Shown: positions 4,072-61,412 of the stretch, piece by piece | How positions within the stretch are numbered: the stretch's first letter is position 1 | Layout: the number at the start of each line of letters is the position of its first letter | Source of the DNA: Halorussus caseinilyticus | GTDB lineage: Archaea; Halobacteriota; Halobacteria; Halobacteriales; Haladaptataceae | Direction of reading: 5' to 3' | Length of the DNA stretch: 64,000 bases | Assembly: GCF_029338395.1 (NCBI RefSeq) | Contig: NZ_CP119809.1 | Span: forward strand, 496,001 to 560,000 | Position numbers and translations under genes: made by a program | Notes under the pieces: generated by a model | What the model saw: only the letters and a program-made list of their open reading frames with translations | Database searches by the model: none | Told to the model about the DNA's origin: nothing

Positions 4072-4130
4072 GAAAGTACGTCTGAAGACGCCTCAGACTG
4101 CCTATTTCGACTGACCTCGGCAACCATCTC

Positions 4131-4333
4131 GGCGCGTGCTGGTCCGACGCTCTGTGCGTCGGACCAACCGCGCGAGGGACGAGGACCGGAGGGAGCGAAG
4201 CGACCGAGGACCGCAGGAGGTTGGGGAGGTGTGAGGTCCGCGGTTGCGATGCGGTTGCGATGCGGTTGCGATGCGGTTGCGATGCTGTGCGGCCGCGGTG
4301 ACTCCGTTGCTCAAGCCTGAAGCTAGCGTCTCG
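4131..4333 (+). repeat. Element A, copy 1 (dispersed intergenic structured repeat)
   Basis: One of three copies in the window (others 9821-10024 reversed, 30651-30812). Order of parts: a GCGCG arm, a copy-specific perfect hairpin (GGTCCGACGC at 4141-4150 with GCGTCGGACC at 4156-4165), CCGCGCGAGG, a second variable hairpin zone, a conserved core GGTTGGGGAGG at 4219-4229, GGTCCGCGGTTGCG, then TCAAGCCTGAAGCTAGCG at 4311-4328. The same blocks recur in the other copies while the hairpin arms differ in sequence. It fills most of the 369-base gap between the acyl-CoA synthetase and the acyl-CoA dehydrogenase. Function unknown. Confidence 0.75.
4240..4283 (+). repeat. Four tandem copies of an 11-bp unit inside element A1
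   Basis: GCGGTTGCGAT is repeated exactly four times (4240, 4251, 4262, 4273). The other two copies of element A have only one or two partial units here, so this is a local expansion, probably by replication slippage. Confidence 0.9.
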
Positions 4334-9820: not shown

Positions 9821-10024
9821 GCTAGCTTCAGGCGTGAACCGATGAGGACCGCAACCGCCACCGCACGGCACCGCCCCGCACCTCGAACCTCCCCAACCTC
9901 CTCGCTCGCTTCGCTCGCTCGTCCACCGGCAGACAAACCGCGTCTGCCGAGCAGTCGGTCGCTTCGCTCCCGACGACCTCGCGCGGTTGGCGCGGCCACT
10001 TGCGGGCCGCGCCAGCGCGCGCCG
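9821..10024 (-). repeat. Element A, copy 2 (reverse orientation)
   Basis: Read on the minus strand it has the same order of blocks as copy 1: CGCGCGCTGG arm, a copy-specific perfect 9-bp hairpin (GGCGCGGCC/GGCCGCGCC, plus-strand 9989-9997 and 10005-10013), CCGCGCGAGG, a zone with its own hairpins (CGGCAGAC/GTCTGCCG and a GAGCGAAGCG tip), the core GGAGGTTGGGGAGG, and CGCCTGAAGCTAGC at the end. The core is shared with copy 1; the hairpin arms are not. It occupies nearly half of the 450-base gap between mce and the aminotransferase gene. Confidence 0.75.
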
Positions 10025-10155
10025 GAGTGATAGGAAGCCATCTCTCGGGGACAGACATAGAAACGTTATAGACAACTACGTATAGCTTTCACAATCATAA
10101 AGTTGTCTCTCGACCGCCGACAGCACTTATCACGCAGTCCGTCGTGGACGTGTTC

Positions 10156-30650: not shown

Positions 30651-30812
30651 ACCGGCGCGCGCTGGCGCGGCCTCCGTGCCGCGCCCGTCCGCGCGAGGGA
30701 CGACTGAGCGAGTGCCGGAGGCACGAGTGAAGGAGTCGGTTGGGGAGGGTGTGGTCCGCGGTTGCGGTCGCGGTGCGGTCTTCATCGGTTCAAGCCTGAC
30801 GTAGCGTCTCGG
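30651..30812 (+). repeat. Element A, copy 3
   Basis: Same block order as copies at 4131 and 9821: CGCGCGCTGG arm, copy-specific hairpin GGCGCGGC (30664-30671) with GCCGCGCC (30678-30685), CCGCGCGAGG, a second hairpin (GTGCC/GGCAC near 30712-30724 within GACT/AGTC), the core GGTTGGGGAGG, GGTCCGCGGTTGCGG, and GGTTCAAGCCTGACGTAGCG at about 30787-30806. It follows an AT-rich tract (30610-30650) that could terminate or start transcription. It fills the 403-base gap before the surface glycoprotein gene. Confidence 0.75.
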
Positions 30813-51434: not shown

Positions 51435-51567
51435 GGGTGGATAAAGGGGCCGCCCGCTCGCGGGCCGGAGGCCCGTGGTCGTCTCAGCGTGGCTCTATTC
51501 CGGGCGCGCAGTCCTGCGCGCCCGAAATATCCCGCGGAGCGACCGCGAGCGGGCGGGGGCTTTCGAG
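51435..51567 (+). repeat. Element B, copy 1 (structured repeat)
   Basis: Begins GGGTGGATAAAGGGG and ends GGGCGGGGGCTTTCGAG. Paired parts: outer arm CCGCCCGCTCGCG (from 51450) with CGCGAGCGGGCGG (to 51556); small side hairpin GGGCC-GGA-GGCCC; arm GGTCG (51477-51481) with CGACC (51540-51544); and a copy-specific distal arm ending in the hairpin CGGGCGCGC-AGTCCT-GCGCGCCCG (51501-51524). The same layout is seen at 60199 and 61242. It lies in the 475-base gap between sufD and the ferritin-like operon, which otherwise holds only the short leader ORF at its end. Confidence 0.75.
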
Positions 51568-51745
51568 GCGTTCGTCGCTACGAGTTCCCCGGTGTCCCGA
51601 TTCCGCCGCGGACAGGGGACTCCCGAAACGGGACTCGCCCACGAGACCGAGAGCGCAGCGAAACCATCGACGTACCCCGCGAACGACGGCGAGACCGGAG
51701 TCCGGACCAAACTTGTTAAGTCTCCCAACTCCCGACAGTGTACCA

Positions 51746-52842: not shown

Positions 52843-52946
52843 AGTCCCGTGGTGTAGTGGCCAATCATATGGGCCTTTGGACGTAGCGGGTTACGAGTCG
52901 TTACGGAAGCAAGCCCATGACGGCGGTTCGAATCCGCCCGGGACTA
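52843..52946 (+). tRNA. tRNA-Gln(TTG) with 31-nt intron
   Basis: Acceptor stem AGTCCCG (52843-52849) pairs with CGGGACT (52939-52945), discriminator A at 52946. T arm GGCGG-TTCGAAT-CCGCC at 52922-52938. Anticodon stem TGGGC (52870-52874) pairs with GCCCA (52913-52917); the loop CTTTGG is interrupted after position 37 by an intron at 52881-52911, and A38 follows at 52912. The anticodon TTG (52877-52879) reads CAA, glutamine. A 31-nt intron at 37/38 is also known in haloarchaeal tRNA-Gln(UUG) and is cut by the archaeal splicing endonuclease. CCA is not encoded. Confidence 0.93.
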
Positions 52947-60198: not shown

Positions 60199-60368
60199 AA
60201 CCGCCGGGACGCGCCCGGCCGACCAGACCACGAGTTTGGGTGGATGAAAGGGGCCGCCCGCTGGCGGGCCGCAGGCCCGTGGTCGTCTGACCGACCCCTA
60301 TCCGGAGTGAGCGAAGCGAACGGAGGATATGTCGGTCAGCGACCGCCAGCGGGCGGGGGCTTGAAGCC
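60199..60368 (+). repeat. Element B, copy 2 (left inverted copy flanking uspA)
   Basis: Full copy: a leading small hairpin CCGGG-ACGCG-CCCGG (60204-60218), GACCAGACC, GGGTGGATGAAAGGGG, outer arm CCGCCCGCTGGCGG (60254-60267) paired with CCGCCAGCGGGCGG (60343-60356), side hairpin GGGCC-GCA-GGCCC, arm GGTCG/CGACC, copy-specific arm CTGACCGAC (60287-60295) with GTCGGTCAG (60331-60339), and a GAGCGAAGCG-type tip. Ends in GGGGGCTTGAAGCC. Nearly identical at both ends to the inverted copy at 61242-61412. Confidence 0.8.
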
Positions 60369-60379
60369 GTCGTCTCTCC

Positions 60380-60640
60380 GACTCCGACGAGGACAGAGAC
60401 GACAGCGACAGAGACGACAGGGACAGAGACGACTCCGACGACAGAGACAGCAACGACAGAGACGACTCCGACGACAGAGACGACAGGGACAGAGACGACT
60501 CCGACGACAGAGACAGCAACGACAGAGACGACTCCGACGACAGAGACAGCAACGACAGAGACGACTCCGACGACAGAGACAGCAACGACAGAGACGACAA
60601 CGACAGCGACGACAACGACAGCGACGACAGCGACCACGAC
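60380..60640 (+). repeat. 33-bp minisatellite beside element B2
   Basis: Five consecutive 33-base units begin GACTCCGACGACAGAGAC at 60431, 60464, 60497, 60530 and 60563 (the second unit differs inside), within a wider purine-rich stretch of GACGACAG/GACAACG repeats from 60380 to 60640. The unit length is a multiple of three, so long open frames cross it on both strands, but their products are monotonous and unlike proteins; I treat it as non-coding. It ends 45 bases before uspA. Confidence 0.9.
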
Positions 60641-60684
60641 CACCTACCACCCGACTACTTGTGACCCGGCGTGCAACGTCCCGC

Positions 60685-61241: not shown

Positions 61242-61412
61242 CTCGAAAGCCCCCGCCCGCTGACGGTCGCTCTGCGGGATATTCTCGCTCGCTTCGCTCG
61301 CTCGAATAGTGCCCGCAGAGACGACCACGGGCCTGCGGCCCGCCAGCGAGCGGCCCCTTTCATCCACCCAAACTCGGGGTCTGGTCGGCCGGGCACGTCC
61401 CGGCGGTTCGGC
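61242..61412 (-). repeat. Element B, copy 3 (right inverted copy flanking uspA)
   Basis: Read on the minus strand: small hairpin CCGGG-ACGTG-CCCGG, GACCAGACC, GGGTGGATGAAAGGGG, outer arm CCGCTCGCTGGCGG with CCGTCAGCGGGCGG (two G-T pairs in place of the G-C pairs of copy 2), side hairpin GGGCC-GCA-GGCCC, GGTCG/CGACC, distal arm CTCTGCGGG/CCCGCAGAG (plus-strand 61312-61320 and 61270-61278), and a GAGCGAGCGAAGCGAGCGAG tip. It fills about half of the 330-base gap between the convergent uspA and phosphate-permease genes; the rest has no gene. Confidence 0.8.

Follow-up and report, generated by a model that had tools for sequence, protein, structure and literature searches.

The genome of Halorussus caseinilyticus contains well over a hundred unannotated copies of a structured, non-coding sequence, element A, which has relatives across the order and no match in Rfam release 15. 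The preferred reading, held at a probability of about 0.48, sees in element A an old element of the order Halobacteriales that has been kept vertically, lies dispersed between genes, is not autonomous and behaves in the manner of a REP/REPIN or a PATE. It is perhaps already a functional RNA. Three copies lie in the window, by which is meant the whole 64,000 bp stretch analysed. The original prediction described these as members of a dispersed family without coding capacity, having blocks in a fixed order and swapped, paired hairpins. The genome copies, their alignment and the covariance search agree with this description, and no coding version was present among the copies inspected.

Copies and anatomy of element A

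The three window copies are at the predicted places, both by direct reading and by covariance matches (Table 1). The covariance model was built from 39 module-poor genome copies (alignment A1), whose rows include window copies 1 (L017) and 3 (L019); its next match in the window has an E-value of 0.012. As predicted, hairpin 1 differs between the copies and has perfectly paired arms in each. The block order was also correctly described, but one of the blocks said to be shared, GGTCCGCGGTTGCG, is not found as such in copy 2, where there is GGTGCGGGGCGG...GGCGGTTGCGG; copy 2 reads TCACGCCTGA.

Table 1. Positions of element A, its parts, and element B in the window
Feature	Position	Strand	Remarks
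Element A copy 1	4129..4327	+	two bases before GGCGCGTGC to end of AAGCTAGC; read directly
Covariance match to copy 1	4131-4237	+	E 3.8e-12
Copy 1 outer stem P1, 5' strand = GGCGCGTGC	4131..4139	+	P1 pairs counted in 39 copies
Copy 1 hairpin 1 = GGTCCGACGC-TCTGT-GCGTCGGACC	4141..4165	+	
Copy 1 block CCGCGCGAGG	4168..4177	+	P1 3' strand + AGG
Copy 1 internal stem, type GAGxAyCGCA / GAGuvwCGCA	4178..4218	+	encloses GAGCGAAGCGA hairpin
Copy 1 G-rich core GGTTGGGGAGGTGTGAGGT	4219..4237	+	
Copy 1 3' block GACTCCGTTGCTCAAGCCTGAAGCTAGC	4300..4327	+	with CTAG palindrome
Element A copy 2	9821..10025	-	read directly
Covariance match to copy 2	10023-9880	-	E 9e-8
Copy 2 hairpin 1 = GGCGCGGCC-CGCAAGT-GGCCGCGCC	9989..10013	-	
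Copy 2 block CCGCGCGAGG	9977..9986	-	
Copy 2 GA stem (GAGCGAGCGAAGCGAGCGAG) and two optional hairpin modules	9899..9976	-	
Copy 2 G-rich core	9880..9898	-	
Copy 2 3' block GGTTCACGCCTGAAGCTAGC	9821..9840	-	
Element A copy 3	30652..30805	+	3' end without CTAG; read directly
Covariance match to copy 3	30654-30755	+	E 3.8e-17
Copy 3 hairpin 1 = GGCGCGGC-CTCCGT-GCCGCGCC	30664..30685	+	
Copy 3 class I GA stem	30699..30737	+	GAC-GA-CT-GA-GC-GA-GTGCC(GGA)GGCAC-GA-GT-GA-AG-GA-GTC
Copy 3 G-rich core GGTTGGGGAGGGTGTGGT	30738..30755	+	
Element B	51443-51576	+	dispersed structured repeat of the window
Element B	60241-60362	+	
Element B	61247-61367	-	

The order of the blocks is CC-GGCGCGYGC, hairpin 1, GCGCGAGGGAYGA, a stem, TCGGTTGGGGAGG..GTGG, (T)GCGGT repeats and ..AAGCTAGC. 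In alignment A1, hairpin 1 is followed by CGCGCGAGGGAYGA, the stem, (A/G)TCGGTTGGGGAGG and then either NNGTGG or NNGTGAGG. GCGGT-type repeats come after the core, and the 3' block mostly ends in AAGCTAGC or in GTAGCTAGC and pyrimidines. The internal stem is composed of 2 bp Watson-Crick steps alternating with tandem G.A pairs, and is preceded by 0 to 3 extra hairpins. In parsing, the internal stem of copy 1 falls outside both of the GA-stem classes described below, CGGA replacing CGCA.

The median length is 166 bp (range 127–295 bp, from the 64 of 83 copies whose 3' end could be recognised), which is too short for a transposase gene. Palindromes are present near both ends, these being hairpin 1 and the CTAG palindrome, which terminates copies 1 and 2 and is absent from copy 3. 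CTAG is found 40–200 nt past the core start in 63 of the 83 copies, while the window as a whole is poor in CTAG, with 25 occurrences where a Markov model predicts 78; copies fused to element B mostly have none. No terminal inverted repeats were seen by eye, and the longest matches between flanks, as would be left by target duplication, were no better than with permuted flanks. The analyses of ends, of length and target duplication, and of CTAG left out loci in which the 5' part or the 3' end was not recognised. The search for a coding parent returned 5'-only matches (L084, L255–L257) that are complete elements with extra modules or element B fusions, with no ORF inside by eye. Short tandem duplications of about 25–105 bp were also seen by eye outside or across the ends of many copies, on both sides (L019, L023, L082, L094), as if replication had slipped at the structure.

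A genome-wide search for the core found at least 134 exact copies, and the blocks of the family keep their order rather than occurring as independent GC-rich words. The pattern, GGTTGGGGAGGN{4,5}GG, has 58 forward and 76 reverse matches, and its reversal has none. The same pattern matches 21, 32, 57, 21 and 57 times in five sister genomes, with reversed-pattern totals of 0–2. With 2 mismatches, GGTTGGGGAGGNNNGNGG occurs 235 times in the genome against 61 for a control. In the window alone, the core word GGTTGGGGAGG with up to 1 mismatch has 3 matches where 1.36 are expected, and 16 of 100 shuffles reach 3. The core word is therefore decisive genome-wide and not significant within the window. 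Searching the genome by blastn with copies 1 to 3 gave at least 45, 58 and 44 matches, counts that rest on the best 40 of 220–354 candidates per search, and at least 99 clustered places in union. The sequences of these loci were taken together with their flanks. Parsing identified 100 copies with the core and the GCGAGG block, 96 of them with a recognisable 5' part; one, L107, duplicates L097 and was dropped from the counts after the gene-placement step. Two identical copies with identical flanks are located on the second contig (C2:3188-3353 and C2:386481-386646), for which a duplicated segment or assembly redundancy is possible.

Element A had been called the second dispersed family of the window. 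That it is a dispersed family holds, but it is not always separate from the other family, element B. Element B has a closing stem, GAAAGGGGC.../...GGGGGCTTTC, with inner hairpins, and a GAGTGAGCGAAGCGAACGGA-type hairpin in one copy. In two copies in this genome (L072 and L084) the element A core runs directly into GGGTGGACTGAAAGGGGC, the start of element B. A word search found the core followed by element B in 8 of 43 matches in other haloarchaeal genomes, one of which (L233) is doubtful; the fusions extend to several other genera. In such cases A and B are two halves of one composite. Both are dispersed and structured with GAGCGAAGCGA-type tandem-GA hairpins, yet element B has another sequence and closing stem and usually lies apart from element A in this genome. 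At some loci, of Natrialbaceae type and others, TCCCC comes after the core, whose GGGGA might base-pair with it; a simple word test finds this in 6 of the 43 matches. At 60373-60675 of the window there is a tandem GACGACAGAGACGAC-type repeat (Asp/Arg/Ser/Asn) in the N-terminal part of an ORF with a universal stress domain as its C-terminal half.

The fold and its strand

Hairpin 1 was parsed in 85 copies, which have 39 distinct 5' arms. These contain 806 Watson-Crick pairs, 12 G.T, 5 A.C and 2 others, from a parser that favours G.T over A.C. Of 99 copies, 34 have the class I GA stem and a further 6 have a shorter form of it. Here 2 bp Watson-Crick steps alternate with GA/GA steps, as in GAC-GA-CT-GA-GC-GA-CC(GGA)GG-GA-GC-GA-AG-GA-GTC. 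The variable steps are Watson-Crick in 149 of 156 cases, compared with a mean of 63% (maximum 75%) when the 3' arms are permuted among copies. Class II, GAGxAyCGCA/GAGuvwCGCA, is present in 20 copies; 39 of its 40 x:w and y:u pairs are Watson-Crick, against 34% when permuted. The other 39 copies are outside both classes, some having a fully paired hairpin instead (L042, L068 and L079). Alignment A1 has 97.7% paired cells against 90.5% when shuffled, and in 9 pairs both partners have changed, against 3.6, while slid structures pair at 52% or less. Tandem G.A steps are known from structural work to adopt sheared pairing. Most class I hairpin loops are of the GNA type (GGA 14, GAA 14, GCA 3 and GAC 3 in 34 copies), GNA loops being stable DNA triloops.

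A fold on the element strand would tolerate G.T above A.C, and a fold on the opposite strand would do the reverse. The G.T:A.C ratio is 14:0 in the GA stems and 21:4 over all A1 pairs, with 16 other mismatches. It is 16:5 in 29 parsed matches from other haloarchaeal genomes, the 14 unparsed of the 43 being left out. Since the copies are related, these counts are not independent, although several positions contribute. The excess of G.T suggests that it is the element strand that folds single-stranded. With RNA parameters ViennaRNA recovered the class I stem in 3 of 14 copies folded, and with DNA parameters it was not recovered. Covariation and mismatch bias together show a fold that has been selected or preserved on one strand. 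They favour a '+' strand that would fold single-stranded, as RNA rather than DNA. A single-stranded DNA fold was considered and is less preferred, given the results with the two parameter sets and the G.T excess.

Sites, neighbours and distribution

Site 1 (4131-4333) was compared in 11 stretches among 17 sister species, with no call for G013. It is occupied at the same place and in the same orientation in G007, G015, G006, G010 and G017. A degenerate element is present in G004 and only a 3' remnant in G009, and the site is empty in G003, G014 and G008. Site 2 (9821-10024), also compared in 11 stretches, is occupied in the same orientation in G003 and G006 and empty in G001, G010, G008, G002, G014, G015 and G005. 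For site 2, G004 and G017 are without a call, the G017 stretch having a 65 nt match to the element. Orientation is shared at all 7 occupied sites. The occupants differ in their hairpin arms and modules, and the intergenic flanks are at the shuffled level of identity in most comparisons. The 34 nt core is nevertheless 0.68–0.91 identical against about 0.54 when shuffled, and the GCGAGG block is 0.62–0.93 identical. As far as sequence comparison can tell, this shows vertical sharing with losses or gains, and apparent hairpin turnover at fixed sites. Alternatively, there may have been independent insertion at the same site, and the empty sites could be deletions. The sister species are too diverged for a clean insertion with alignable flanks to be seen. 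In the site 2 intergenic region of G002 (L170) and, twice, of G014 (L173) there are short ORFs after GAGGTGA(G/T)..ATG. These encode peptides of about 20 aa, M(F/I)xxxPF..xC...C, which recur in the two species.

The median identity between nearest-neighbour copies is 85%. Most copies are therefore old, and present mobility is not proven. The pair L074 and L075, which are 94% identical, 4 kb apart and inverted, with flanks that differ by eye, is probably the result of recent copying or conversion.

The copies are intergenic and have no preference in gene orientation. Using a simple codon-usage gene finder, both neighbours were called for 89 of the 100 parsed copies: 27 (+,-), 22 (+,+), 20 (-,+) and 20 (-,-). 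One of the 100 overlaps a gene (L107, a called open-ended ORF). The 31 matches placed in other haloarchaeal genomes are divided into 11 (+,+), 8 (+,-), 8 (-,+) and 4 (-,-), none within genes. The composition upstream of 83 copies has no TATA-like AT peak near -27 that would indicate an element promoter. Orientation by replication fork was considered for the 128 chromosomal copies and rejected (runs test z -0.64; best four-block agreement p 0.08). Eleven '+' copies followed by eight '-' copies around the orc1 gene at 3.06 Mb are suggestive, the whole set not being significant. The original prediction linked the window copies to acyl-CoA metabolism. Such neighbours are indeed present at two of them: copy 1 is between the genes for an AMP-binding enzyme of the acyl-CoA ligase type and an acyl-CoA dehydrogenase, and copy 3 comes after a MaoC protein gene. 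Neighbouring genes are varied. For 20 loci picked at random, the first 20 of their 36 neighbour proteins were scanned with Pfam and include no acyl-CoA enzyme. The association is a coincidence of the window.

Within the genus, 16 of 17 relatives have matches to element A, and none was detected in G008. The covariance model matches at least 33 of 392 genomes of the phylum, all from the same order; this is a lower bound because the best 10 candidates per genome were scored with strict filters. An exact 21-mer was found in 42 stretches, all 42 haloarchaeal, from Halorussus, Haladaptatus, Halolamina, Halapricum, Natronococcus, Haloterrigena, Natrinema, Halogranum, Haloarcula and Halobacteriales MAGs. 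Four plasmid records match, three from Halorussus and one from Haloarcula. In viral contigs the core pattern has 5 chance matches and the longer pattern 0, and there is no match in the phage collection. Copy number is very uneven, from 0 detected in G008 to 134 in the H. caseinilyticus genome.

Origin, rival explanations and known systems

The Y1 transposase (PF01797) is absent from the H. caseinilyticus genome, and the reverse transcriptase (PF00078) that a SINE-like retroelement would require is absent from all 18 genus genomes; control genomes were positive in both searches. There are 9 TnpB genes in the genome. Five words of element A were looked for at 30 TnpB loci of the genus, and one locus (L195) has a degenerate copy, 86 nt after the stop codon. 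At a few others, isolated words that are short or resemble the core occur, and the remainder of the element is missing. Some loci were not in gene orientation, so that some ends were left out of the comparison of TnpB ends. The 3' hairpins of TnpB differ from element A in ending in GGGTGGGGTAGTTCAC, but their inner part, GC-GA-..-GA-GC followed by GGGTGGGG, is in the same tandem-GA style as the element A stem. Eight of these 3' ends (L178, L185, L187, L196, L197, L202, L204 and L206) have a CCCCACCCT..AGGGTGGGG hairpin with a GTCA loop. In Rfam release 15, the 9 element loci searched at E <= 1 have no match on the elements, and the window has a tRNA as its only match at the gathering threshold. 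This tRNA gene (52843-52946) is 104 nt long against a 71-position model and probably contains an intron. No description of the family was found in the literature searched, coverage of which is incomplete.

If element A is an old non-autonomous element, its '+' strand would fold into the outer stem P1, the exchangeable hairpin 1, the GA stem, a G-rich core that stays unpaired, and a 3' block carrying the CTAG palindrome. A putative trans-acting protein would recognise the folded strand and the core, and would occasionally copy the element to new intergenic sites. Copies cutting promoters or genes would be lost. At old sites, the hairpins may turn over by template switching and by module gain and loss, while selection or gene conversion would maintain the core. 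That the core is conserved throughout the order could equally mean a host function. It is possible, though doubtful, that element A is instead a family of structured RNAs with a function for the host, included in transcripts that run on from neighbouring genes. Its folded domain of hairpin 1, GA stem and G-rich core would then be bound by a protein conserved in haloarchaea and might serve, for instance, in RNA stability or localisation. The strand-specific pairing with wobble intermediates fits this, as does a core that is kept across the order and at orthologous sites with randomised flanks. Against it are the fact that neither of two data sets shows a preferred orientation towards genes, the lack of a promoter signal, the very uneven copy number, the optional modules and the empty orthologous sites.

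The heterogeneous copies, near-terminal palindromes, lack of terminal inverted repeats by eye and lack of target duplication above chance would also be expected of a heterogeneous PATE, a non-autonomous IS200/IS605 (IS1341) derivative moved as single-stranded DNA by TnpA in trans. PATEs of IS200/IS605 origin are described from haloarchaea, in Haloquadratum (PMC3119063), and the TnpB 3' ends of the genus share the tandem-GA hairpin style. This origin is quite unlikely, however, in a genome without a Y1 transposase, with the different TnpB 3' hairpin ends, the single degenerate copy at 30 TnpB loci, and an order-wide core that is not a terminal feature. A mutational by-product is very improbable. 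Here replication would stall at strong hairpins and template-switch copies would keep the arms paired without selection, making compensation uninformative on function. Template switching can create and fix a perfect stem in one event (PMC8794818). The short tandem duplications flanking many copies and the fully paired stems that replace the GA stem in some are consistent with it. Template switching would, however, turn GA/GA into GA/TC, and 40 of 99 copies keep GA/GA mismatched while the 2 bp steps between covary, which only selection would do. The GA stem therefore separates the two, and template switching can probably explain the one-step changes of the hairpins but not the GA stem. Conservation of unpaired core words across the order and the G.T excess on one strand also speak against it. 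Least credible is a DNA-level chromosome element, such as a site for a nucleoid protein, a methylase or a quadruplex, in which the CTAG palindrome or G-rich core is active. It is in keeping with the frequency of CTAG in the 3' region despite its rarity in the window, and PMC8281068 calls CTAG methylases widely distributed in haloarchaea. However, copy 3, about a quarter of all copies and most element B fusions have no CTAG, pairing is strand-specific, and the chromosomal orientation blocks are not significant.

A bolder and unlikely proposal takes element A for what can be seen of a mobile RNA system that spans the haloarchaeal order and would spread without reverse transcriptase or Y1 transposase. 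The G-rich core and the tandem-GA stem would be bound by a protein, and the target or outcome would depend on 3' domains that can be exchanged, the CTAG end or element B. Archaea would then have their own equivalent of REPINs, based on an unusual helix of alternating Watson-Crick and sheared G.A pairs.

The copies provide a natural series of hundreds of compensated helices in which to see how hairpins stay paired. They also raise the question of what copies element A when neither a Y1 transposase in this genome nor a reverse transcriptase in the genus was detected.

Element A resembles a REPIN or a heterogeneous PATE but lacks tested features of both, having no Y1 gene and unlike ends. It is short, non-coding, dispersed and intergenic, as MITEs are, but has no terminal inverted repeats by eye and target duplication is at chance. 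REP sequences are shorter than element A, which is also modular and archaeal, and no RAYT-type Y1 protein was found in its genome. Like the REP, BIME and REPIN sequences associated with RAYT in bacteria, element A has more than 100 copies per genome, is extragenic, hairpin-based and non-autonomous, and has apparently been inherited vertically for a long time (PMC3116915 and PMC2817692). It is alike with PATEs in being transposase-free, of high copy number and heterogeneous, with palindromes near both ends and neither terminal inverted repeats nor target duplications (PMC3119063). Terminal palindromes like those of IS605-type transposons and a Y1 TnpA available in trans are PATE features that element A and its genome do not have, and its ends do not resemble the TnpB elements of the genus. 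What element A has, unlike PATEs, is a long conserved single-strand fold and an internal G-rich core common to the whole order.
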